From the IMG/VR virus record IMGVR_UViG_3300045936_000227, positions 1-30,586 of that record: a stretch of DNA of 30,586 nt; one strand, given 5' to 3'. The DNA comes from a virus. A program made the position numbers and the translations under genes. Shown one piece after another: positions 1,691 to 28,313 of this stretch (its first letter is position 1; each line of letters opens with the position of its first letter). The notes under the pieces were generated by a model that saw only the letters and a list, made by a program, of their open reading frames with translations, had not been told where the DNA came from and did no database searches.

Positions 1691-2028
1691 CAGCGTCCTC
1701 GCTTGCGGCGTGGGGGTTCGCGTCGGAACTCGGCGAGGTAGGCGTCGCGGAAGCCGCTCTCCGCGATCGCCGCCGCGAGCAGCATCTCGGCCAGCGCGGG
1801 ATCATCGGTGATCCACGGGATCGTGCCGGTCTGGGTGTTGCGCCGCACGACCGACTCGCCCTCGGGCGTCGCGATCACCACGGCCAGCAGGCGCTCCACC
1901 GTGCGCGTGCGCCGCCGCGAGCAGCCGATCGCCGGCTCCTTGCCGCCCAGGCGGCCGAGCTCCGCGAGCTCGTCCCACGGGCTCGTGACCTCGCGGGCCT
2001 TCCAGTCGTCGTAGCTGCGGCGGGCCAT
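1690..2028 (-). CDS. hypothetical phage protein (112 aa)
   Basis: 112 residues starting MARRSYDDWKAREVTSPWDE. The ATG at 2028 shares one base with the upstream stop (TGATG). A longer reading from 2349 is rejected because its first 107 residues are Arg-rich out-of-frame sequence of the preceding gene. The middle contains a basic stretch (CSRRRTRTVERLLAVVIATP), then a helix-rich acidic segment (DDPALAEMLLAAAIAESGF). It ends in a strongly basic tail (PPRRKRGR), suggesting possible nucleic-acid contact. No family is recognised. Located in the same operon as the ERF recombinase. Confidence 0.6.
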   Translation of the reverse strand: MARRSYDDWKAREVTSPWDELAELGRLGGKEPAIGCSRRRTRTVERLLAVVIATPEGESVVRRNTQTGTIPWITDDPALAEMLLAAAIAESGFRDAYLAEFRREPPRRKRGR

Positions 2029-2342
2029 CACGCGGACTCGGGCACGCGCAGCGCGCGGCGGCGATCGAACTCGGCGGCGACGGCATGCACCTCGGCGAAC
2101 GTGCGCGCCGGGTCGTCGTTCCAGTCGAAGATTCGGCCGAGCCCGTAGGTCCCGCCGAGCCCGATGATGTCGCGGAGCAGCGTGATGTCCTCGCCGGGCA
2201 GGCACTCCTCGCCGCGAGCGTCCGGAGGCTTGCCGGTCAGCGCCTCGCGCACCGCGAGATAGAGACACGTCTGCCCCGTGAACCGCAGCGGGCCGCCTCG
2301 CCACCATTGTTCGGGCCGCGCGAGCAACTCCGCTACCTTCAT
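2028..2342 (-). CDS. DUF6197-like protein, first gene of leftward early operon
   Basis: 104 residues starting MKVAELLARPEQWWRGG. The overall pattern (LL..P..W..G, CL..A, a helix-rich centre, then WNDDPARTFAEVHAV near residues 73-87) resembles the small phage and actinobacterial proteins grouped as DUF6197, whose function is unknown. Assignment is by recall of the pattern, not by search. The start is well defined: the sense strand has GAGGAGGT seven bases before the ATG, one of the strongest ribosome binding sites in the window. It is followed by a chain of overlapping genes that includes the ERF recombinase. It therefore marks the head of the early transcript. Confidence 0.6.
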   Translation of the reverse strand: MKVAELLARPEQWWRGGPLRFTGQTCLYLAVREALTGKPPDARGEECLPGEDITLLRDIIGLGGTYGLGRIFDWNDDPARTFAEVHAVAAEFDRRRALRVPESA

Positions 2343-2420
2343 GTCGCACCTCCTCGGCAGAGTCAGGAGGGTGGCGCCCAGGAGCAGGCAGACCGCGACA
2401 CCGAACCGAAACGCTTTGAA

Positions 2421-2449
2421 TTGCGCCGGCTAGCCGTGCGCGCTATCCT
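2421..2449 (+). promoter_or_regulatory. candidate sigma70-type promoter for the rightward gene
   Basis: TTGCGC at 2421-2426 and TATCCT at 2444-2449 are separated by 17 bases, the optimal spacing for a housekeeping promoter. Each hexamer matches consensus at four of six positions. Start of transcription would be near 2456, leaving a leader of about 185 bases before the preferred ATG at 2642. No experimental support; in GC-rich DNA such matches are uncommon but not rare. Confidence 0.35.
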
Positions 2450-2454
2450 GTCGT

Positions 2455-2472
2455 GCTGAGCGCGGCTGAGCG
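2455..2472 (+). repeat. tandem GCTGAGCG direct repeats at candidate start site
   Basis: The octamer GCTGAGCG occurs at 2455-2462 and again at 2465-2472, a period of ten bases, close to one helical turn. The pair sits just downstream of the candidate -10 element. That is where a repressor or autoregulator would block initiation. Two copies only; could be coincidental. Confidence 0.35.
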
Positions 2473-2641
2473 AACCCTGTGCCCGTGACTCTCGCCCCGA
2501 AAGGTGAACCCAAGAGCATGGGCTGTCAAGGAAGATCGAAAGGAACCACAATCCCAGATGAAATCAGGGGGGTCCCGGCCTACCTATAGTGGTTTGAGCA
2601 AAGTTTCACGACGTACCGCCGAACGTCCGACCTCGGAGCGC

Positions 2642-3160
2642 ATGTCTGCCCGCGAGTTTCAGGGCCTCCTCGGATGGACCCAACTCGAATACAATCAATG
2701 GCTTACGGCGAAGGGATACGGCACGCGCTCGAACTACAAGCGGCGCGGCATCCCGGCGGCCATCGCGGTCAATGATCTCTTGAAGTATTATCGCGAGGGT
2801 GAACGCGCACTTACCGAGGCGGTGGCCGCCGGACGCGAAAGCGCCTTCTTCTCAGGTAGTGATTTGGGGGGCCTGCTGGCCAGGCTGCGACGCATGAGTC
2901 GCCTCCCCGACGCTGCCCTGGCGGTCCTACTGGAGCTCGCCTACGAGCTCTGGGAAATCCAGGTCTCCGATCCCGAGCGCTACCGCACCGTGCTTGCCCA
3001 CATCAAAGATGTCCGCCAACTCCTCGGGCTCGAACCGCTGGCCCCGAAGATCCGCGTCGGCGAGATCCGCACGAAAATCAGGCGGGCGCGCCGTGCCCTC
3101 CGCACGCCCGCGGCGCTCCCGCCGTCGCCACCCCCGGCGCCGCCGCCGGCCACCGGCTAG
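2642..3160 (+). CDS. rightward hypothetical protein, possible DNA-binding regulator
   Basis: The only plus-strand gene, 172 residues from the ATG at 2642 (MSAREFQGLLGWTQLEYNQW). Its N-terminal 45 residues have the size and helical pattern of a compact helix-turn-helix domain. A helical central part follows (about 55-130, including LLARLRRMSRLPDAALAVLL). It then has a basic segment (KIRRARRALRT) and a Pro/Ala-rich tail. Earlier in-frame starts at 2504 and 2558 are possible, but codon use before 2642 looks non-coding; a GGAG lies only three bases upstream of the chosen ATG. Its stop shares a CTAG with the stop of the converging membrane gene. Lone divergent position next to the early operon suggests a regulator, but no family is recognised. 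Confidence 0.55.
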   Translation: MSAREFQGLLGWTQLEYNQWLTAKGYGTRSNYKRRGIPAAIAVNDLLKYYREGERALTEAVAAGRESAFFSGSDLGGLLARLRRMSRLPDAALAVLLELAYELWEIQVSDPERYRTVLAHIKDVRQLLGLEPLAPKIRVGEIRTKIRRARRALRTPAALPPSPPPAPPPATG

Positions 3161-3387
3161 AGTTTCGGGAGCGCGAACCAGCCGCCCGGCATACTGCCCG
3201 TCAGCACCGCGACCAGCACCAGCAGCATCAACAGGCCGACGATGGCCCAGACGCTCCAGGCGATCCAGGATTTCGGTGGCTCGGGCAACGGCGAGCTCGC
3301 GACGACCCAGGACAGGATCGCGCCGGCCAGGCCGAGCACGAGTAACACGACCACGACCTTGATCAACAACAGCAGGACCGCGACCAT
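3157..3387 (-). CDS. small two-span membrane protein, holin candidate
   Basis: 76 residues from the ATG at 3387, preceded by GGGGAGGGG as a ribosome binding site and sharing one base with the upstream stop (TGATG). An extended start at 3432 is rejected because it would read an Arg/His-rich out-of-frame leader. There are two hydrophobic segments, about residues 1-29 and 42-62, joined by the polar loop PLPEPPKSW. Two-span proteins of this size at the end of a late operon are often holins, which permeabilise the membrane at lysis. No adjacent endolysin is visible, so the holin label is only a candidate. It converges on the plus-strand gene. Confidence 0.6.
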   Translation of the reverse strand: MVAVLLLLIKVVVVLLVLGLAGAILSWVVASSPLPEPPKSWIAWSVWAIVGLLMLLVLVAVLTGSMPGGWFALPKL

Positions 3388-3500
3388 CAGTCCCCTCCCC
3401 GCATGACGATGCGAGCGGCGTCGCTCTCGCATCGAAACGCCACGCCGAGCAGCAGCGCGACCATCAGGCCCGCGAGCACCAGCAGCGTCGCCCGCGTCAT
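3387..3500 (-). CDS. very small single-span membrane protein (37 aa)
   Basis: 37 residues beginning MTRATLLVLAGLMVALLLGV, one N-terminal membrane helix and a short polar tail (RCESDAARIVMRGGD). Its ATG overlaps the stop of the large upstream virion gene as ATGA, and its stop overlaps the next gene as TGATG. Both junctions fit the rest of the operon and argue for translation. A cysteine follows the helix, but the preceding residues do not make a proper lipobox, so it is not called a lipoprotein. It may work with the neighbouring two-span protein in lysis; this is inferred from location only. Confidence 0.6.
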   Translation of the reverse strand: MTRATLLVLAGLMVALLLGVAFRCESDAARIVMRGGD

Positions 3501-5311
3501 TTCTTCTTCTTCGCCTTCTCGTCCCGCGCGCGCTGCTGCGCCGCGGCGCCGCTGCGCAGCACGTGCTCGCCCAGGTAGCCGAGGCCCTTCGGAACTTTGG
3601 TGATCACGTTCGCGGTCGGCTCCACCCAGGCCGGCGCCGTCAGCGGTTCGAGCTTGCCGACGTACTTGGTCCCGAGGTTCGGCAGCCCGATCGCCGAGAG
3701 CACCGAGCGCTTGAGATTGCCGGAGCCGGTGTTCGTGCCCGCGACGGTCTGCCGCAGCGGGTCGAGGAGCTCGCCGCCGCCCGTCGCCGGCTTGTCGGCG
3801 CCCATCGGCTTTTCGCCACGGAACAGCGCCTGCTGGAACTTCTCGAAGTCCTTCTCGCCGAGGGCGCGCTGCAGCTTCGCCGCGCGCTCGGGATCGGTCG
3901 AGATCATCAGCTGCAGCTTGCGCATGTTCAGCATGCCATCCTGGTCGAGGACCTTCGAGTCGCGTAGGAAGTCGTACAGCACGCGCCCCTTGCGGTAGTC
4001 CGTCTGACCGGCCTCCCACAACTCGCGGGCGAGGTTGTCGGCGCCGTGCTTCGGTTCCCAGCGCGGCCGCGCCATCGCGTTCCGGGCGGCGACGTCGACC
4101 CCGGTCTCCGCGGCCTCGATGCCCTCGCTGATCTCGCGCCGCACCTTCGCGTAGAGCCGGGCCGGGTCCTGGTTGCCGTAGCGCGGATCGAGAACTTTCT
4201 TGCCGCGCATGGCGTCGCCGATGTCGGACAGCACGGCGTTCGCTTCCTTCACGGTCATCACCGCCGGCTTGCCGTTCTCGCCGAGCGACGGGATCGCGAT
4301 CTGCCCCGCCCCGAGCTTCACGTCGTAGGGCGGATTGAATCCGGCCCCAGGGCTGGCCTCGGTGCCGGGCAGGTTGCCGGGCAGTCGGTTCTCGACCACC
4401 CCTGCGACGCGCTCCTTCTCGGCGTTCATGCGCGGCAGCCCCGGCCCGCTGGTGTCCTTCGTGGCCTCGCGCCAGACGAGCTTCTGGACGTCCTCCGGCG
4501 TCTCGGCGCCGCGCAGCGACGGGTTGATCTCCCCGACCGCGCCCATCACCCGCCGGGTGTCGGCCTCGTTCACCCGCTTCTTGCCGCCGGGGCCGACGCG
4601 CAGCAGCCACTGCGTGACCTTCGGCGCCGCCGCCATCAGGGCCTCGCTCGGCCCCTGCGTCGCCAGGGCCTGGCCGGCACCGGCACCGCGCGGCTCGCCT
4701 GTGAGCTCGCCGGTCACCTCGCCCGCGGTCGCCCCGACCAGCAGGCGCGCGAGCGCCGGGTAGTTCTCCAGGGCCTCCAGGCCGGCGACCTTGAGGCCCT
4801 GGCGCACGAGGGGCGGCGCGAGCTTCGTCGCCGCCTTGCCGACGCGCACCGCCCGGCCGGCCTGCCCCGTGGCCAGGTCGATCGCCAGCTGGGTCGGCGT
4901 GTTCGGCAGCAGCGCGCGGGGCAGCGCGGGCGCGACCGCTTCGCCCGCACGCTGTCCAGCCTCGGCCTGCGCCTGTTTCACGGCCGGATCGTTCATGCCC
5001 GGCGTCAGCTTGAGCGTCGGGTTCGGCTCGTACTGTCCGGCGATCACGTTGGCGCCGGCGGCGGCGCCGGTGCCGATCGCGCGGCTCACGGCCTCGTGCG
5101 CCTGCGAGTAGTAGCTCGGCGGCTCCGGCTGCGGTCCCGCCGTCTTGGGGCTCACGTACTCGCGGTTGGGCGGGACCTGCGGCGGCGGGCCGGCCGTCGC
5201 CGTCGAGATCGAGGAACTCGACTCCACGCCCTTCAGGGCCTTGGCGACATCGGCGTCGGTGAAGTCGTCCGGAAACTGGTGCCGCGTGCCCTGGTACTCG
5301 ATCTCTCTCAT
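3497..5311 (-). CDS. large virion-associated protein (internal/ejection candidate)
   Basis: 604 residues. The N-terminus MREIEYQGTRHQFPDDFTDA, continuing into VAKAL, matches the short motif (x-FPDDxTDxxVxKAL) seen at the front of many phage virion proteins, especially internal or ejected ones. A Pro/Ser-rich linker (about 30-70) follows. Next are Ala/Gly-rich helical segments (about 75-230) and a long polar helical region (to about 510). The end is a lysine-rich tail (EKAKKKK). No peptidase or transglycosylase signature is found. The ATG overlaps the preceding stop (ATGA). Late position, size and low-complexity helical makeup suggest a protein packaged in the head and delivered with the DNA, but this is inference. 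Confidence 0.6.
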   Translation of the reverse strand: MREIEYQGTRHQFPDDFTDADVAKALKGVESSSSISTATAGPPPQVPPNREYVSPKTAGPQPEPPSYYSQAHEAVSRAIGTGAAAGANVIAGQYEPNPTLKLTPGMNDPAVKQAQAEAGQRAGEAVAPALPRALLPNTPTQLAIDLATGQAGRAVRVGKAATKLAPPLVRQGLKVAGLEALENYPALARLLVGATAGEVTGELTGEPRGAGAGQALATQGPSEALMAAAPKVTQWLLRVGPGGKKRVNEADTRRVMGAVGEINPSLRGAETPEDVQKLVWREATKDTSGPGLPRMNAEKERVAGVVENRLPGNLPGTEASPGAGFNPPYDVKLGAGQIAIPSLGENGKPAVMTVKEANAVLSDIGDAMRGKKVLDPRYGNQDPARLYAKVRREISEGIEAAETGVDVAARNAMARPRWEPKHGADNLARELWEAGQTDYRKGRVLYDFLRDSKVLDQDGMLNMRKLQLMISTDPERAAKLQRALGEKDFEKFQQALFRGEKPMGADKPATGGGELLDPLRQTVAGTNTGSGNLKRSVLSAIGLPNLGTKYVGKLEPLTAPAWVEPTANVITKVPKGLGYLGEHVLRSGAAAQQRARDEKAKKKK

Positions 5312-7377
5312 GGCAGTTTCACCGGGTTACCCTGCGCGTCCTTGCCCCACTTCTGCACCGGGGCGGCACCCGCCGGCTTCGCCGCCCCGCCCTGGGGCCG
5401 CGGCTCCGTGGGATCGGGCGGCACCGCGTAGCGATTGCCGCCGCCCCGCAGGATGTTGATGATCGCCGCGCGGTCGTTCTTGAGCACGCGCTGGGCGCCG
5501 CGGAGCTTCGACATGATCACCGGCAGCGGGTCCTCGTTGCTCCAGACGTACTCGCGCAGGTAATTCAACTCGGCGGTGGTGTTGGCCAGGCCGGCGATGT
5601 CGCGGCGGAGCAGGCCAGCCGCATGCGCGGACTTCGCGATCGTGTCGCGCTGCTCCTCGGTGAGCAGCCAGCCCGTCCACTTGTCGAGCTTGCGCGCGAT
5701 CCACCCCTCGGGGTTCGAGATCCACGTCCCGAAGGTCGACGCGATGGCGGGATCTTCGTAGGCCTTCAGGAGCTCCGTGATCGTCAACGCGCTCCGGTCG
5801 AGCTTCTGCAGGTCGCTGCGCTCGCCGGGCGGCGTCGGCTGCGGCGGACCTTCGAGCGTCCGTCCGCTCGGCAGCCGGAGCAGGCCACCCATCTGCACCG
5901 AGGCCCCGGGCTTGAGGGCGTCCATCTTGTCCGCGGCCCGGAGCGTGTCGGGATGCTGCGGTCCCCGCTTCGGATCGTGCATGGCCGTGAACCACTCGTT
6001 GACGGCCACCACGAAGGCCTGATCGCTGCTCGTCTGCGTCGGCTTCGGACCGACGCCAGGAATCCGGGTCACCGTCGGCTGGTTGGTCGCCGGATCGACC
6101 GCGACCAGGTACGGCCCCTTGGCGTCCTCCTCCATGTAGGTCGTCCACTTGTCGGTCTTGCCCTGCACCCCCTCGACCTGGCGGGTCTGCATCTTGCCGT
6201 CCGCGTCGCGCCACATGGCCCACTCCCGGCCCTGCGCATCCGTGATGTAGCGCGGCTCGGAGGCCTTGGGAGCCTGGCCGACGCCCGTCGGCCCCTCGAC
6301 CGGACGGCTCACCATCTGCCCGTCCGCCCCGCGCCACATCACCCACTCCTTGCCACTGGCGTCCGTGACGTAGCGCGGCTCCGAGGCCTTGTCGGTGTCG
6401 GGCTTCTTGGTGGCATCGGGCACGAGCTGGGACTTGAGCTCGCCCGTCTGCGGGTCCAGCCACGTCGCCATCAGGCCCCTGTCCGTCCACTGCAGTTGCG
6501 GCGCCGGCTGGCGGACGGCTTCGGGGAACAGCTTCTTGAGCAGCGGCTCACCTTCCTTGCCCATCTCGATGAGCTGCAGCATGAGCTGCAGGTCGGCGGG
6601 GTCCTTCACCATGCTGAGCGGCGAGGGGCGCATCACCGGGCCGGCGCCGGTCGGCGTGGCCGGCGCGGGGCCTCCGGCCTGCGGCCCGCTGGTGATCGGC
6701 GACGCGGCGACCTCGCCGGGCCTGGTCGTCGGCGGCGCCTTCGGGGGCGGCGGCACGATCGTGCTGGGCGCCGTCTGCAGCGCGCCCATCTCCTGCTCCA
6801 TGCCGTAGGCGTCGCTGGGCTGCTCGGGCGGCAGCGGCAGCGTGCCCGCCCCGCCTTCGCCCATCGGGGCAGCCCCCGTCTGCTGCGCCTCCGTCAGCAG
6901 ATCTTTCTCGCGGAGCAGGCGTTCGACGCGGCCCTGCTGTACCCGCGTCGCGTACTCCTCCTGCGGCGTCATCGGCGTCGGGCCGGTAGGCGCCGCCGGG
7001 GCAGGCCCCTGCGGCGGGGCGCCCGCAGCCCGGAGGGCGATCAGCTTGGTGAGCTTCTCGATGTTCTGCGCCCGCAGCGCGGCCTCGCGCTCCTTGCGCA
7101 GCTCGGGCAGCATCGCGGTGTACGCCGCGGTCGGCATCCGCCAGGGTCCGGTGAGCCCGGCCGGCCTCTTGAACATCTCGGGCATGGCCTGGGCGAGCGG
7201 CTCCATGTCGATGAAGGCGGCCTCCTCCAGCCGCTGAAGCTCGCGCTCACGCAGCTTGCGATCGGCCGCCTTCTGCTCGGCCTCGAACTGCAGGCGGCGA
7301 TTCTCTCGCGCGACCTCGCCCCAGCCGCCGATGCCGGTGCCGATACCGCTGAAGATCGCCGCCAGTGGACTCGCCAT
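5308..7377 (-). CDS. large repeat-containing virion protein
   Basis: 689 residues, starting MASPLAAIFSGIGTGIGGWG. A charged coiled-coil-like helix spans about residues 22-55, then helical and Pro/Gly/Ala-rich linkers to about 260. At 330-406 there are two near-identical repeats beginning KASEPRY(V/I)TDA, each with an EW(V/A)MWR core and ending at (R/Q)xVEG. Related strands flank them (WLDPQTGELKSQLVPD before, AVDPATNQPTVTRIPG after). The C-terminal third is helical, with a low-complexity Pro/Gly end. No enzyme motif is recognised. The stop overlaps the next gene's ATG (ATGA). By position and composition it belongs with the presumed internal or tail-tip proteins. Confidence 0.6.
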   Translation of the reverse strand: MASPLAAIFSGIGTGIGGWGEVARENRRLQFEAEQKAADRKLRERELQRLEEAAFIDMEPLAQAMPEMFKRPAGLTGPWRMPTAAYTAMLPELRKEREAALRAQNIEKLTKLIALRAAGAPPQGPAPAAPTGPTPMTPQEEYATRVQQGRVERLLREKDLLTEAQQTGAAPMGEGGAGTLPLPPEQPSDAYGMEQEMGALQTAPSTIVPPPPKAPPTTRPGEVAASPITSGPQAGGPAPATPTGAGPVMRPSPLSMVKDPADLQLMLQLIEMGKEGEPLLKKLFPEAVRQPAPQLQWTDRGLMATWLDPQTGELKSQLVPDATKKPDTDKASEPRYVTDASGKEWVMWRGADGQMVSRPVEGPTGVGQAPKASEPRYITDAQGREWAMWRDADGKMQTRQVEGVQGKTDKWTTYMEEDAKGPYLVAVDPATNQPTVTRIPGVGPKPTQTSSDQAFVVAVNEWFTAMHDPKRGPQHPDTLRAADKMDALKPGASVQMGGLLRLPSGRTLEGPPQPTPPGERSDLQKLDRSALTITELLKAYEDPAIASTFGTWISNPEGWIARKLDKWTGWLLTEEQRDTIAKSAHAAGLLRRDIAGLANTTAELNYLREYVWSNEDPLPVIMSKLRGAQRVLKNDRAAIINILRGGGNRYAVPPDPTEPRPQGGAAKPAGAAPVQKWGKDAQGNPVKLP
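6160..6390 (-). repeat. tandem ~40-residue protein repeat inside virion gene
   Basis: Codons for residues 330-406 of the 689-residue virion protein encode two adjacent units sharing the sequence KASEPRY(V/I)TDA(S/Q)G, then (K/R)EW(V/A)MWR, (G/D)ADG(Q/K)M and VEG. The two copies are closely similar in protein and still similar in DNA, indicating an internal duplication. Weaker relatives occur on both sides, suggesting a beta-hairpin repeat array of about four units. Confidence 0.75.
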
Positions 7378-7380
7378 CGC

Positions 7381-8400
7381 TTACGACCCCCCGCTCGACT
7401 TGGACGGACCAAAGATCCCGGCCAGGCCGCCGATGCCGCCGGCGATGCCCGTCGCAATCAACTGGTTGCGCTGCATCTCCCGCGCGAGATCGTGTCGGCG
7501 CTTCTCCAGGTCCTCGCGCGAGTTGACCTCGGCCATGAACTGGTTCTGCTGCTGCTCGCGGTTCGCGCGGTTCGTGTAGTTGGTGCCCGCGGTGCTCACC
7601 GCGAACCGGTTCGCATCGGCCTCGTTCTTGGCGTTGGTGAAGGCGATGTTGGCGTCGGACTGGATTTGGCCGGTCCCCGTTTCATACGCCTGCCCCAACG
7701 CCGCCCGCCGCGCGGCCTCGTCGGCGCGCGCCTCCGCGCCGGCCCCGAGGATCGCCTCGCGACGCGCGCGTGCGGTGGCGTCGAACGTCTCGCGGTCGAT
7801 GTCGGCCTTGCGATCGTTGAGAATGGTCGAGAGTCCGACCCCGCGATGAAACACGTCCTGCGTGGCCTTCTGCCGCTCGGCCAGGGCCGCGCGGTCGATC
7901 TCTTCCTTCGCCCGATCGTAGAGCGCCGCCTCGATGCGCGCCTGCCCCTGCGCGGGATGCGCGAGGACGTCCTGCAACCCGCTCATGCTGGAGAGCTGGA
8001 GCCGGCGCGCCGCCTCCAGCGCCTGCGGCGTCATGGGAACGTTGAAGGGCGTCGGCCGCGTGTACGCGCCGATCGCCTCGGGATCTTCCAGCAGGGACGC
8101 GAGCCCGCCGCCGGCCGCGCCGCCAAGCGTCTTGGTCGCCGAGGGGCCGGCCCCGATGGCCTGGCCGATCATCCCGGTTTTCGCCGTAAGTCCGCCGCTG
8201 GAGTAGGCCGACGGGGCTCCGTAGCTCGTGACCGTGCTGGTGGGCGCGTACGACGGCCCCGTGTACGGCGTGTACGGCGTGCCCGCCGGGACCCCCTGAA
8301 GGAGGTGATCGTTGGCGAGGTTCCCCCCTCCGCCGCTGTTATTCCACTCGTCCCACCACTCGGGTTCGATGCTCCCGGCCGGCTTCAGCGTCACCGCCAT
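7381..8400 (-). CDS. virion-associated protein, helical (339 aa)
   Basis: 339 residues starting MAVTLKPAGSIEPEWWDEWN, with a GGGAGGG ribosome binding site just upstream. The first 110 residues are Gly/Ser/Thr/Tyr-rich linker. From about 125 to 300 the protein is a long charged helical region rich in Ala, Arg, Glu and Gln (e.g. RRLQLSSMSGLQDVLAHPAQ, later NREQQQNQFMAEVNSREDLE). It ends in a Gly-rich hydrophobic stretch (ATGIAGGIGGLAGIFG) that could insert into or cross a membrane. This arrangement is like internal core or ejection proteins of short-tailed phages. No catalytic motif is recognised, and the assignment rests on position and composition. Confidence 0.55.
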   Translation of the reverse strand: MAVTLKPAGSIEPEWWDEWNNSGGGGNLANDHLLQGVPAGTPYTPYTGPSYAPTSTVTSYGAPSAYSSGGLTAKTGMIGQAIGAGPSATKTLGGAAGGGLASLLEDPEAIGAYTRPTPFNVPMTPQALEAARRLQLSSMSGLQDVLAHPAQGQARIEAALYDRAKEEIDRAALAERQKATQDVFHRGVGLSTILNDRKADIDRETFDATARARREAILGAGAEARADEAARRAALGQAYETGTGQIQSDANIAFTNAKNEADANRFAVSTAGTNYTNRANREQQQNQFMAEVNSREDLEKRRHDLAREMQRNQLIATGIAGGIGGLAGIFGPSKSSGGS

Positions 8401-8402
8401 GG

Positions 8403-9098
8403 TTACCGCCCTCCCCGGGCCATCAGGCGCTCCAGCGCGCCGGGCTCCTGCGCGATCTCACTGAGCCGGGGCACGAAGGGTGTGAACGCCGCGGCCATCT
8501 CCGAGCCGCTCGGCTGCGGCAGCACGTCCGGCTTCGGCACCGTCATCGCACTGACCGAGGACGGCACACTCGGCTCGCCGAGCGCCAGCAGCTTGCTCGC
8601 GCCCTTCTCCGCCCCGCCCAGCACCTTGCCGAGGACATCGCCGAGCCCACCCCCGGTGATAGCGTTCTTCGCGCCGCTGAGGATTCCCCCGAGCCCGCCC
8701 GGCTTGGGCATCTGATTCTCGGAGCGCTGGTCGATCGGCACCGTGGTGCCCGGGATGTCCGGATCGAGGTTCGCGCTGCCGAAAATCGGATCGTTCGACA
8801 GCGAGCTGGCATCGGCGGCGAGATTCGGATCGTAGATGCCACCTCCCACGCCCTTCACGATGCCACTGTCGTCCGTCATGTCGCCGTAGTCCCCGACGGA
8901 CTCCCCGGCGCCGGTGTAGTCGATCGTGGAGTAGCCTGGCTCCGTGTACAGCGAGCCGTAGTCCGGCACCGCGTACTCAGCCCCGGTGTAGTCCGGGAGT
9001 GCAGGGACATCGGACCACCCCGAAATACCGCCGAAATCATCCGGCAGCCCGCTGAGATCAATGTCGCCCCACCAGTCGCCCCACGGGGAATACGCCAT
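8403..9098 (-). CDS. acidic, Gly/Tyr/Asp-rich virion-associated protein
   Basis: 231 residues beginning MAYSPWGDWWGDIDLSGLPD, behind a good ribosome binding site (AGGAGAGG). The N-terminal 110 residues are acidic and rich in Tyr, Gly, Asp and Ser, with loose repeats of the type PDYxxxYxxPGY. The middle has a Gly-rich segment (GGLGGILSGAKNAITGGGLG) that is weakly hydrophobic. The C-terminus is a short helix (ALERLMARGG). It lies between two other presumed internal virion proteins and is likely expressed with them. No family is recognised. Confidence 0.55.
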   Translation of the reverse strand: MAYSPWGDWWGDIDLSGLPDDFGGISGWSDVPALPDYTGAEYAVPDYGSLYTEPGYSTIDYTGAGESVGDYGDMTDDSGIVKGVGGGIYDPNLAADASSLSNDPIFGSANLDPDIPGTTVPIDQRSENQMPKPGGLGGILSGAKNAITGGGLGDVLGKVLGGAEKGASKLLALGEPSVPSSVSAMTVPKPDVLPQPSGSEMAAAFTPFVPRLSEIAQEPGALERLMARGGR

Positions 9099-18479: not shown

Positions 18480-19166
18480 CTATTGCTGGGCATAGGCGTA
18501 CCAGGGTTGCGTGCCGCCGCCGCCCGCAGCCACCGCGTTGAACCCCGCCATCGCGATGGCGCAATTGCGCGCGGTGGCCCACGTGTAGCCCATCGTCACA
18601 CTCGCGGCGCCGCCCTCGGTGGAGGTGGCCCCGAAGACGTTGTTCGACGCGGTGGCGTTGGTCGTCACGTCGTTCGTGTCGTTGGCCTGGCCCGCGTTCG
18701 CGGTGGGGGCCTCCGTCGAGTCGCGCTTGCTGAGGAACGCCACGTAGAGCTTGTCCACCGACGCCGCGGCGTCGGTGACGGAGAGCGCCGCGGCATTCAC
18801 CCCGCCGTTGTTCGAGACGGTGGCCGTCCCAAGCGCGTCGGCCGGGTCGACGCCGGTGGCGGAGCAGGCCATCCCGACCATCTGGGAGGCCACGGACAGC
18901 GTGATGACCACATCGTTGGCCCCCGACGCGGGCGCGTTGAATTCCCAGAGGTCGATGAGCGCCTGCGTGTTCCTGGCGCTCCCGATCGACGTGCCGCCGA
19001 CGCCGTTGTACGTCACGCTGGAGACGACGGCCGTGGTCGACCGCGCGGCGACCCCCACCGCGAGGCCGAGATTCGCCCCGGTGTTCGTCTTCGAGAACGT
19101 CAGCGACAGGAGCGCCGTCGCGCCCGCGTCGACGACGACGTTATCGTCGAAGACTGGCGCGGCCAT
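18480..19166 (-). CDS. beta-sandwich virion protein
   Basis: 228 residues beginning MAAPVFDDNVVVDAGATALL. It is almost entirely beta-strand sequence rich in Ala, Thr, Val, Ser and Gly. The pattern LGLAVGVAARSTTAVVSSVT, continuing into a YNGVGGT turn and then LIDLWEFNAPASGANDVVIT, is one I recall from immunoglobulin-like surface domains of phage and bacterial proteins. The C-terminus ends GGGGTQPWYAYAQQ. It starts 26 bases inside the previous small gene. Probably a decoration or fibre component on the virion surface; no enzymatic motif. Confidence 0.6.
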   Translation of the reverse strand: MAAPVFDDNVVVDAGATALLSLTFSKTNTGANLGLAVGVAARSTTAVVSSVTYNGVGGTSIGSARNTQALIDLWEFNAPASGANDVVITLSVASQMVGMACSATGVDPADALGTATVSNNGGVNAAALSVTDAAASVDKLYVAFLSKRDSTEAPTANAGQANDTNDVTTNATASNNVFGATSTEGGAASVTMGYTWATARNCAIAMAGFNAVAAGGGGTQPWYAYAQQ

Positions 19167-19338
19167 CCTCTGCCTCTCGGCACAGCGTGACCCAACGCTG
19201 GGCCGCCCACGCCTCGGGCGGCAGCCACGCCGGGCGGCCCTGGCGGTACTCGGCCTCGGTCAGCTCGACGGCCCGGGAGAAATCGAGGATGCCCGTCGCA
19301 GGATCCCGAGGGACCGCCTCGTACACAACGTCGCGCAT
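19141..19338 (-). CDS. small hypothetical protein (65 aa)
   Basis: 65 residues from the ATG at 19338 (MRDVVYEAVPRDPATGILDF), sharing one base with the upstream stop (TGATG). The longer reading from 19956 is an out-of-frame shadow of the previous gene. The sequence is polar and acidic, with a Trp-containing middle (WLPPEAWAAQRWVTL) and no membrane segment. It ends inside the next gene. No family is recognised. It sits among virion genes and is likely expressed with them. Confidence 0.55.
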   Translation of the reverse strand: MRDVVYEAVPRDPATGILDFSRAVELTEAEYRQGRPAWLPPEAWAAQRWVTLCREAEDGRASLRR

Positions 19339-19970
19339 CAGCGGCCTCGCCACCTCTCGCCTTGCACTCGCCCAAAGTCCCGCCGCGACGGCGTCGGGGG
19401 AATCCTGGCACTCGGCGGCGGCCCGAGCGACGCGCCCGGCGGGATGTGGCCGCCGGTCGGGATCGGCGGTCCCGGAACCGCGCCGGGCAGCATCGGATTG
19501 CTCTGGAGGCTCATCAGGGCCCGCTCGGCGTCGGCCATGTTGAAATTGCCGTGGAACGGCGGGCCGGAGAACCGCGTGCTCAGCGCCTCCATTTCTTCCG
19601 GCGTGGCCTTCAGCCCCCGCTTGGCGAAGTGCGAGAGGATCGCGTCGCGCGCCTCGGCCTCCCGCCGCACCAGCTCCTGGTCGGCCAGCACGCGCTGGCC
19701 GCGGCTCATCACCGGCGAGCCCCGCACCGGCACGTTCGGGTCGATCGGCGGTGCTGCCTGCGAGGCCGACAGGCGCATGGGCGCGGCCAGGCCCACCAGC
19801 GACGCGAGGCCGGACAGCCAGTCCTGCGCTCCCGCCTGCGGACGCTCGGCCGTCATGCCTTGCGCGTAGCGATCGAGCATCGTCCACGGATCCTGGTTCA
19901 CCTCGGCGTCTTGCGGCGCCTGTCCGGGGTCCATCAGCAGCCGCGACAGGCCCCACGGCACGCTAGGCAT
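19338..19970 (-). CDS. hypothetical virion-region protein (210 aa)
   Basis: 210 residues beginning MPSVPWGLSRLLMDPGQAPQ. The centre (about 85-150) is a charged helical stretch (LADQELVRREAEARDAILSH, then KRGLKATPEEMEALSTRF). The C-terminal 60 residues are Pro/Gly-rich linker with a basic end (GRVQGERWRGR). The start lies eight bases inside the previous gene's end. No known domain is recognised. Placement between capsid and tail-fibre genes suggests a structural or assembly role. Confidence 0.55.
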   Translation of the reverse strand: MPSVPWGLSRLLMDPGQAPQDAEVNQDPWTMLDRYAQGMTAERPQAGAQDWLSGLASLVGLAAPMRLSASQAAPPIDPNVPVRGSPVMSRGQRVLADQELVRREAEARDAILSHFAKRGLKATPEEMEALSTRFSGPPFHGNFNMADAERALMSLQSNPMLPGAVPGPPIPTGGHIPPGASLGPPPSARIPPTPSRRDFGRVQGERWRGR

Positions 19971-23948: not shown

Positions 23949-24656
23949 CTACAGGTGGTGTGACACTTTACGGCACCGCTGCGCCGAGCGGGAGTGTGGC
24001 ACCGCCCCGTTGAGCCGCTTCCAGCGCTTGCGTTTGAAGATCCCCGGGATCGGTTCGATCTCCTGGGGCTCGGCGGCCAGGAGGGCGGCCAGGAGCTCGG
24101 CCTCGTGGGGGTCCTCCGGGACGACCAGGTCGTGCGAGGGCACCACCCCGTAGAGCTCCGGGTCCCGCTTCCTGGGCTCCGGGAAGAAGCCGAACACCCC
24201 CTTGCAGTAGCGCCAGGTGTAGGTGCCCGACGCCTTGATCTTCCGGGGCGGCGGCGTCGGGTACGGCTCAGGCTCCGGCGGCGCCGCCGGCCTGTCCGGC
24301 AGCGGCGCCCACACCGTGTAGGCGTCCAGCTGGCGGAGCGCCTGCAAGGCCCGAGACTGCAGGGAGGGCTGCGGCTGGGGCGCCGGGGCGTCGCGCCACT
24401 CCAGGTGCAGTTGCGCGCACCGGGTCTCGCCCGGCACCGGCGCGTGCGGGCACGGCGCGTACCGGGGAGCGATCGGCGGCCCGATCTGCACGGCCATCTC
24501 GCAGAAGACGGGCTCGGTCGTTGCCGCCTCCAGGCGGGCGACGATGGTGGCCCTGGGGTAGAGGCTCGCCCAGTAGGCGGCGATCTCCTTGTCGTTCGCC
24601 TGCAGCGCGAGCGGGACGTTCCACCACTGCGCCGCCGGCCGCTTCCGCCAGGGCAT
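23949..24656 (-). CDS. hypothetical protein, Pro-rich (235 aa)
   Basis: 235 residues beginning MPWRKRPAAQWWNVPLALQA. Residues about 20-90 form a folded-looking part with scattered cysteines (VFCEMAVQIGPPIAPRYAPC, then TRCAQLHLEW). A Pro-rich linker (about 90-140, PPEPEPYPTPPP) follows, then an aromatic segment (SGTYTWRYCKGVFGFFPEPR). The end is acidic, then basic (FKRKRWKRLNG). No known domain. Located between a Cys-motif small protein and the moron-like gene, it belongs to the accessory set between portal and scaffold. Confidence 0.55.
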   Translation of the reverse strand: MPWRKRPAAQWWNVPLALQANDKEIAAYWASLYPRATIVARLEAATTEPVFCEMAVQIGPPIAPRYAPCPHAPVPGETRCAQLHLEWRDAPAPQPQPSLQSRALQALRQLDAYTVWAPLPDRPAAPPEPEPYPTPPPRKIKASGTYTWRYCKGVFGFFPEPRKRDPELYGVVPSHDLVVPEDPHEAELLAALLAAEPQEIEPIPGIFKRKRWKRLNGAVPHSRSAQRCRKVSHHL

Positions 24657-24663
24657 CCCTACA

Positions 24664-24996
24664 TCACTTCTTCCCCGACGACCCCACGATGACCTCTCGC
24701 CGCCCCGCCGGCACCGGGGGTGGGGGGGGTGGGGGTGGGGGCGGCGGCGCGGGCGGCGGCGCGACCTTCTTCGGCGCGTGCTTCGCGGCCTCCGGCGGCC
24801 CGACGCGGTACTCGCCGCACCACTCGGAGGCCACCAGGCGGGGCCAGCGCGGCGGGCGCGCGAGATCGTAGATGCCGGGCGGCGAGGCGGGCGGCGCGGT
24901 GCGCCGGCACTCGCCGACCGCCTCGCCAGCGAGCTCGACCTCGGCCGGCAGGCTGAGACTCAGGTTGTTGAAGTAGACGCAATCAAGGCAGGGCAT
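24664..24996 (-). CDS. small four-Cys phage protein with polyproline tail
   Basis: 110 residues starting MPCLDCVYFNNLSLSLPAEV. Cysteines occur as C3xxC6, C30 and C60 in the pattern CLDCVYF, GECRRTAPPA, ASEWCGEY. This spacing (CxxC, then ECRRxxP, then WCGE) is one I recall from small phage proteins; the four cysteines could bind a metal ion. The C-terminal third is a proline run (more than ten consecutive prolines), then a short basic end. The polyproline codons give the G-tracts on the opposite strand at 24716-24741. Function unknown. Confidence 0.6.
   Translation of the reverse strand: MPCLDCVYFNNLSLSLPAEVELAGEAVGECRRTAPPASPPGIYDLARPPRWPRLVASEWCGEYRVGPPEAAKHAPKKVAPPPAPPPPPPPPPPPVPAGRREVIVGSSGKK
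24716..24741 (+). other. G-quadruplex-forming motif (template strand)
   Basis: On the plus strand there are four G-runs of 5, 8, 5 and 5 bases at 24716-24720, 24722-24729, 24731-24735 and 24737-24741, each separated by a single T. Runs of at least three G with one-base loops are the most stable parallel quadruplex design. The runs are the complement of proline codons in the small four-Cys gene, so codon choice partly explains them. They lie on the template strand of a leftward gene, where a quadruplex could slow polymerase. Confidence 0.8.
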
Positions 24997-24999
24997 AGC

Positions 25000-25203
25000 T
25001 CACCGATCCCTGTCGCGCGGCTTGCGCGACGGCGCGGGCACCTCGTCCTCGTGCAGGGCCTGGGCGATGGCCAGCAGGCCGGTGCGGATGTGGACGGCGG
25101 CTTCACGGATCGCCTGGGCGAGCTCGCGATCCCCGGGACCGTCGACCAGCAGGCCCTCCGTCGCGCTGGCCAGCCGTTCCAACGCCTCTTCGATGCGCGG
25201 CAT
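25000..25203 (-). CDS. small helical hypothetical protein (67 aa)
   Basis: 67 residues from the ATG at 25203 (MPRIEEALERLASATEGLLV). The ATG shares one base with the upstream stop (TGATG). A longer start at 25356 would be Arg/His-rich out-of-frame sequence. The product is nearly all amphipathic helix (AIREAAVHIRTGLLAIAQAL), ending in a charged tail (SRKPRDRDR). No family is recognised. It is one of four small genes between portal and the moron-like unit. Confidence 0.6.
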   Translation of the reverse strand: MPRIEEALERLASATEGLLVDGPGDRELAQAIREAAVHIRTGLLAIAQALHEDEVPAPSRKPRDRDR

Positions 25204-25490
25204 CACTCGACTCCCTTCTCGGGCGCCAGCAGCTTCACGCCGACCACCGGCATGCCCGTCGCATCGGCGACGAGGCGCAAGATGGCCGGGGTGACCGTCT
25301 CGTCGTAATACGAGACGTCGGTGCGCGGCCACGACGGCGACGGCTCGCGGTCCCACTCCACGCGGATGTGCCCGAGCGTGTCGAGGTAGACGTTGCAGGA
25401 ATTGCCGGACGGCAGGACGAACGAGCCCAGGTCGCGGCCCGATCCCCGCGCGCCGTAGTCGCAGTTGTCGTGCATCGGACAGCGGCCCAT
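25203..25490 (-). CDS. hypothetical protein (95 aa)
   Basis: 95 residues from the ATG at 25490 (MGRCPMHDNCDYGARGSGRD), one base after the portal stop. It has three cysteines near the N-terminus (C4, C10, C32), then a strand-rich segment (FVLPSGNSCNVYLDTLGHIR) and a helix (ILRLVADATGMPVVGVKLLA). No catalytic motif or membrane segment is visible. Not recognised; may be a head-completion or accessory protein. Confidence 0.55.
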   Translation of the reverse strand: MGRCPMHDNCDYGARGSGRDLGSFVLPSGNSCNVYLDTLGHIRVEWDREPSPSWPRTDVSYYDETVTPAILRLVADATGMPVVGVKLLAPEKGVE

Positions 25491-28098: not shown

Positions 28099-28313
28099 GC
28101 CGCCGCCCCCACCAGGTCGACAGCCCCGCCGTCGCCGCGCGTGCCCCCGCCGCGCATCCTCCGCGGCCGCCGCGGGGCGGACGGCCGCGGCGGGCGGCAG
28201 ATCGCCACCGGCCCCGTGGCGCCCGGCGGCCCCGCGACGGCGCGCCGCGGGGGGCCAGGCTCGACGGTCGGCGTGCCCGGCGGCCCCGCGCTCCGCTGGC
28301 GACGCGCGCTCAT
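28095..28313 (-). CDS. small Arg/Pro/Gly-rich protein (72 aa)
   Basis: 72 residues from the ATG at 28313 (MSARRQRSAGPPGTPTVEPG). A longer reading from 28670 is an out-of-frame shadow of the terminase end. The ATG overlaps the terminase stop (ATGA), and its own stop overlaps the next ATG (ATGA); these junctions are the main evidence. Composition is dominated by Pro, Arg and Gly, with collagen-like GPP and GAT triplets (VAGPPGATGPV), but the Gly-X-Y register is not kept for long. Basic and probably disordered; could contact DNA. Function unknown. Confidence 0.5.
   Translation of the reverse strand: MSARRQRSAGPPGTPTVEPGPPRRAVAGPPGATGPVAICRPPRPSAPRRPRRMRGGGTRGDGGAVDLVGAAA

Follow-up and report, generated by a model that had tools for sequence, protein, structure and literature searches.

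We propose that the non-coding region at 2343-2641, together with the gene to its right (2642-3160, plus strand, 172 aa), is probably the switch between lysis and lysogeny in a temperate podovirus-like phage; the rightward protein would serve as its immunity repressor, CI-like but diverged and from a family not described so far. The analyzed stretch of DNA, here called the window, is a virus record of 30,586 bases and apparently a partial genome. A preliminary description had already suggested a repressor and an early promoter at this place, and this is still the best reading, although the promoter and repeat it had cited turned out to be near chance. The reading rests on one relative, contig IMGVR_UViG_3300045885_000359 (47,103 bases; hereafter G004), the only one found with the switch region. 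The intergenic gap and the gene layout of the window, the homolog of the rightward protein in the matching slot of G004 beside a divergent gene with helix-turn-helix (HTH) matches, the integrase of G004 and the XRE-like N-terminus of the rightward protein are results of our computations.

In a lysogen, the rightward protein would bind, presumably as an oligomer, to operators within 2343-2641 and thereby turn off the leftward early promoter, for which TTGACA at 2524-2529 is the candidate -35 box. The repressed operon, encoded on the minus strand, would comprise a DUF6197 protein (2028-2342, 104 aa; PF19698, E 3.3e-10; phrog_762, E 3.7e-8), a 113-aa protein without Pfam or PHROG match (1690-2031, likely ATG at 2028), a small membrane-type protein of 58 aa that is hydrophobic by eye (1514-1690), and an Erf-like single-strand annealing protein, an early recombination gene (679-1437; PF04404, E 6.8e-9; phrog_2324, E 1.4e-17). 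DUF6197 is mentioned in an announcement of a temperate Gordonia phage. A narrow literature search on switches, repressors and DUF6197 returned nothing on the proposed repressor family. The phage's own integrase would then lie in the missing part of its genome.

With 30.6 kb, the window represents a fragment of a podovirus-like phage genome. Pfam and PHROGs searches detect in it, besides the Erf-like annealing protein, the major head protein, portal, large terminase and virion structural proteins. The closest record in the phage collection for capsid and portal is MW202554 (titled Podoviridae sp.; 47.7 and 34.3%, respectively), followed by Arthrobacter and Microbacterium phages; the phage might be P22-like. 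No tRNA was found in the window and no Rfam match in 1900-3500. Scanning with the terminase yielded three near-identical contigs and G004, and a repeated scan gave the same four loci; the three near-identical contigs have no real match to the gap DNA or to the rightward protein. With Erf and the leftmost frame as queries for a leftward extension of the window, no contigs matched. Genome contigs gave no match to a motif of the rightward protein or to the G004 integrase.

The gap at 2343-2641 (299 bp) is the longest intergenic gap of the window, as the preliminary description had stated, provided that the rightward gene begins at ATG 2642. This result depends on the gene set: because the gene caller uses the first possible start, its own gap stops short of GTG 2504 at 161 bp, and its next largest gaps are 211 bp (28099-28309), 183 bp and 169 bp. 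Where the caller chose plus-strand shadow frames, we counted the minus-strand open reading frames instead (18480-19166, 19338-19970, 24664-24996, 25000-25356), and the remaining other gaps are then at most about 171 bp. The GC content at the three codon positions is 0.57/0.61/0.50 in 2504-2641 and 0.70/0.52/0.79 in the rightward gene. As the former is unlike coding sequence here, GTG 2504 is an unlikely start and ATG 2642 a likelier one, and the extension of coding to 2504, which had been raised against the switch, did not appear. The ATG is preceded at 3 nt by a weak ribosome-binding site (GGAG, 2635-2638, plus strand), while the strong leftward site noted previously is confirmed as AGGAGG (2349-2354, minus strand), 6 nt before the ATG of the DUF6197 gene. 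The rightward gene also stands as the only plus-strand gene, since it alone among the called plus-strand frames shows the usual codon-position GC pattern: the calls at 97-291, 1808-2014, 18751-19869 and 24589-25308 have a high second-position GC, like shadow frames, and the pattern of 18619-18747 (42 codons) assigns it to neither class. A plus-strand open frame of 1030 aa at 5623-8715 faces minus-strand genes and is likely a shadow frame arising from the high GC content.

The region had further been described as less GC-rich than its surroundings. This applies to the gap as a whole (0.619 against 0.702 for the window, with 1.2% of all 299-base segments lower), but 2343-2400 has a GC content of 0.707 and is thus not low, and the minimum for segments of that length (0.569, 2498-2796) straddles the start of the rightward gene.

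The gap also contains the 17-bp-spaced promoter that had been pointed out, TTGCGC-17-TATCCT (2421-2449, plus strand; the hexamers begin at 2421 and 2444), yet it matches in only 7 of 12 positions and is near chance: five gap sites reach at least 7 of 12 (two of them with a common -10), while shuffled sequences give 1.5 (P about 0.06), and a stricter scan of 2200-3500 at 9 of 12 gave none. The direct repeat GCTGAGCG (2455-2472, plus strand) is likewise present with a helical-turn-like spacing of 10 (copies at 2455 and 2465; P about 0.02 when the gap is shuffled). Since 34 positions of the window start an exact 8-mer repeat with a spacing of 9-11, the pair is not notable. As judged from the sequence, a better early -35 box than the promoter originally put forward, and the best candidate, is the perfect TTGACA at 2524-2529 (minus strand, toward the early operon), one of two in the whole window, whose -10 at 17 bp spacing is only a poor CACCTT. 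The G004 gap also carries a perfect TTGACA in the early direction, with four TTGACA in the 40 kb of G004 examined; the joint occurrence toward the early genes in both gaps has a shuffle P of 0.003, a post hoc value, and the -10 boxes are poor. The word CATGGGC near both TTGACA sites was considered, and we make no claim for it. A -10-like hexamer without -35, TATAGT (2585-2590, plus strand; one found against a shuffle mean of 0.17), tentatively indicates a possible weak or activator-dependent promoter for the repressor gene.

Searches for operators were limited to particular forms. For dyads with spans of 14-26 bp, the best was no better than in shuffles (fraction reaching it 0.72 for the window and 0.23 for G004), in a search that would overlook degenerate operators. 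Words common to the window gap and the G004 gap did not exceed chance. As for stoperator-like repeats, the recurrence of 12-mers from the gap (up to two mismatches) does not exceed that of 12-mers from 18 other segments (30 against 45-140).

The main evidence for the switch comes from G004, which shares 94% identity with the window in the capsid protein, 85% in the portal and 78% in the terminase. G004 would be a circularly permuted genome, with which the order of the aligned pieces across the contig ends (first 6.8 kb not included) is in agreement. It encodes a homolog of the rightward protein (L014:1339-1863, minus strand; E 1.1e-14, 33% identity) that adjoins, convergently, the counterpart of the small membrane-type protein gene at the end of the window's late operon (3157-3432, minus strand; 72% over 54 aa), and hence occupies the matching slot. 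On its other side, a gap of 313 bp (L014:1864-2176, GC 0.556) separates the homolog from a divergent 116-aa gene with matches to HTH_3 (E 0.002, under the Pfam cut-off) and to PHROG transcription regulators (E 0.0007-0.002). Farther along lie genes for a protein with a weak PD-(D/E)XK match (E 0.004), for a DnaB helicase and, about 6 kb from the homolog, for a tyrosine recombinase (PF00589, E 2e-23; SAM-like domain, E 2.9e-12). A perfect TTGACA (L015 9229-9234) starts 29 bp before this integrase gene, and an SprT-like metallopeptidase (E 1.2e-7; weak M78, E 0.025) is encoded directly after it (L015 10600-11265). Between the end of the late operon and the counter-transcribed homolog, G004 has a strong, G+C-rich hairpin (L014 1285-1324, z -4.66); at the corresponding position of the window, the stops of 3157-3432 and of the rightward gene overlap tail-to-tail by 4 bp instead. 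The window layout, with the rightward gene divergent from the early operon across a control region, would agree with a regulator role, and the first gene of the early operon is DUF6197, not Cro-like, in the window, and the gene with the HTH match in G004.

The integrase itself bears on another alternative, namely that 2343-2641 is a plain intergenic gap beside an unrelated gene in a virulent phage, with no switch at all. The preliminary description saw no integrase, and we found no tyrosine integrase in the window or in its rightward extensions, the near-identical contigs; among the other capsid relatives, many of them fragments, 41 of 42 show no integrase and one (G011) has one. Together with the near-chance promoter and repeat, these counts speak for this alternative. 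Yet in the sole relative found with the region, G004, a tyrosine integrase occurs together with an HTH gene that diverges across a comparable gap, and we therefore regard the absence of a switch as most improbable.

The preliminary description had assigned the rightward gene to no recognizable family, which holds: Pfam, PHROGs, NCBIfam and PADLOC all lack a match to its protein, and none of these libraries detects an HTH in it. PDB sequences queried with the rightward protein or the G004 homolog gave nothing usable, tblastn against the phage collection and plasmids gave no match to the rightward protein, and viral contigs scanned with this protein yielded none; the two-sequence alignment and a back-translated motif as queries recovered G004 only. 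The proposed repressor family thus consists of two sequences. They share 46% identity over the first 52 residues and 42% over 66 N-terminal columns, the C-terminus being less conserved. An N-terminal profile found no matches in the 42 capsid-relative records, many of which are fragments, in a search run without positive control.

The conserved N-terminus resembles that of phage regulators. Aligned by hhalign to a profile of 13 phage XRE-type regulators, the N-terminal pair matches helix 2, turn and helix 3 with residues 1-23 (2642-2710, plus strand; score 18.55). This score was reached by one of 200 column shuffles and, among tiles taken from other protein pairs of the window and G004, by none of 145; the divergent G004 gene served as positive control and gave a score of 37 against the same profile. 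Random XRE sub-profiles gave the identical register in 8 of 8 cases (0 of 60 shuffles each). The hhalign probability is low (13% for the full profile, 4-25% for the sub-profiles), and the single sequences score below the pair; the resemblance is supportive, not conclusive. The profile was built from 10 of the 40 XRE matches listed (546 records) plus lambda and P22, i.e., 14 sequences of which 13 were kept; lambda Cro, which aligned poorly, was excluded, and JRok and Kaijohn, both kept, are nearly identical. The tiles overlap by half and derive from the window proteins that match the examined G004 parts (17 of 22 queried), with those of gene 3497-5311 counted twice (two overlapping G004 loci were searched).

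The AlphaFold model of the 66-residue pair (m7f33cd165b2d; mean pLDDT 69) has helices at residues 3-10, 14-23, 28-35 and 39-65, of which the first two, joined by a three-residue turn (11-13), fit a predicted HTH. The full-length model is poor (pLDDT 51), Foldseek with these two weak models returned no match at E below 1, and no confident fold emerged, whether DNA-binding or not. An HTH placed by eye at about residues 13-36 was dropped, as hhalign gives residues 1-23, which fit the predicted helices. In the G004 homolog, sub-threshold matches fall outside the proposed HTH (HTH_Tnp_1, E 0.1, residues 130-151; phrog_7898, E 0.4, residues 61-90). A search for HTH_3 in 26 of 47 records gave four matches at E up to 0.01, with none above the cut-off and none anywhere in the window.

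This HTH evidence is not specific for a repressor, and the recognizable HTH matches of G004 belong to the divergent gene. The rightward protein might accordingly be a DNA-binding regulator of another kind, activator- or excisionase-like, with the repressor encoded by the divergent G004 gene or by a gene not seen. We consider this distinctly unlikely: position and layout agree with a repressor slot, typical excisionases are shorter than 172 aa, and the G004 homolog is remote from the integrase.

The rightward gene could also be a moron, i.e., a single accessory gene transcribed from its own promoter that serves, for instance, superinfection exclusion or host manipulation, its low GC content reflecting a foreign origin. 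It is indeed a lone gene, counter-transcribed between the late and early operons and without family match; in G004 the hairpin parts it from the late operon, and its third-position GC content is below that of the neighbors measured (0.79 against 0.86-0.97 in the window, 0.69 against 0.86-0.89 for the homolog in G004). A recent arrival is nevertheless at odds with the retention of a 33%-identical protein in the matching slot by two phages, and the divergence of the G004 homolog from an HTH gene, the HTH-like N-terminus and the lack of a PADLOC match also make a moron unlikely.

If the rightward protein is the immunity repressor, its low identity to the G004 homolog would fit an immunity region, though such divergence is not unique to it. 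Whereas 17 of the 22 window proteins queried match the examined parts of G004, with most structural ones 60-98% identical, an identity of only 33% to the counterpart is also seen for the late gene at 3497-5311, which lies two genes from the proposed repressor (most other matched late genes, 60-98%); Erf has no match in G004, and DUF6197 none in the examined G004 loci. The argument from divergence is therefore weaker than it appears. Gene order differs as well. A relative of the 113-aa gene (1690-2031) is found in G004 just after the portal gene (L005 15011-15211, minus strand; 67% over 67 aa), where it and the terminase gene occupy opposite strands; this gene has therefore moved, and window segment 24742-24916, downstream of the portal, corresponds to L005 9610-9781, upstream of the terminase, in G004.

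Most likely, the switch is of an ordinary kind and the repressor gene is too diverged for the current family libraries. The earlier suggestion of a new regulator type has gained little, given an N-terminus that resembles a diverged XRE-type HTH. We consider it rather unlikely that phage repressors of a new family are represented by the 172-aa protein, with an HTH at the extreme N-terminus followed by an uncharacterized helical domain, where the window would carry a single-regulator switch without Cro partner and with DUF6197 in the cro position, to which G004 adds an HTH partner. Repressors missed by the libraries can make temperate phages appear virulent in metagenome surveys, and the slot between the last membrane-protein gene of the late operon and the early operon, in combination with the family sequence, would help to call uncultured relatives temperate. 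With nearly identical capsids and diverged proposed repressors, the two phages could represent a natural case of immunity divergence.

Compared to the cI-cro and c2-cro systems of lambda and P22 (NC_001416, NC_002371), the window shares the divergence of the regulator gene from the early operon, and G004 in addition has a gene with HTH matches in the cro position. In contrast, the proposed window repressor has no library-detectable HTH or other Pfam match, no operators were found in the window gap, DUF6197 occupies the cro position in the window, and the G004 integrase lies toward its early genes. In Cluster A mycobacteriophages, the repressor is more conserved in its N-terminal HTH part than toward the C-terminus, related phages carry diverged repressors, there is no evidence of a Cro analog, and a divergent layout is reported to be lacking (PMC6550527). 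The first two traits, a better conserved N-terminus and diverged (here proposed) repressors in related phages, recur in the window and G004, and the window shows no evidence of Cro either, but its layout is divergent, its gap has no excess of repeated words comparable to stoperators, and there is no sequence match in the phage collection. The gp33 repressor of mycobacteriophage BPs, a phage with attP inside the repressor gene, is likewise small and acts at an intergenic regulatory region (PMC4557955). Although the proposed window repressor has no sequence match in the phage collection, it resembles BPs gp33 in being small and in its association with an intergenic regulatory region.
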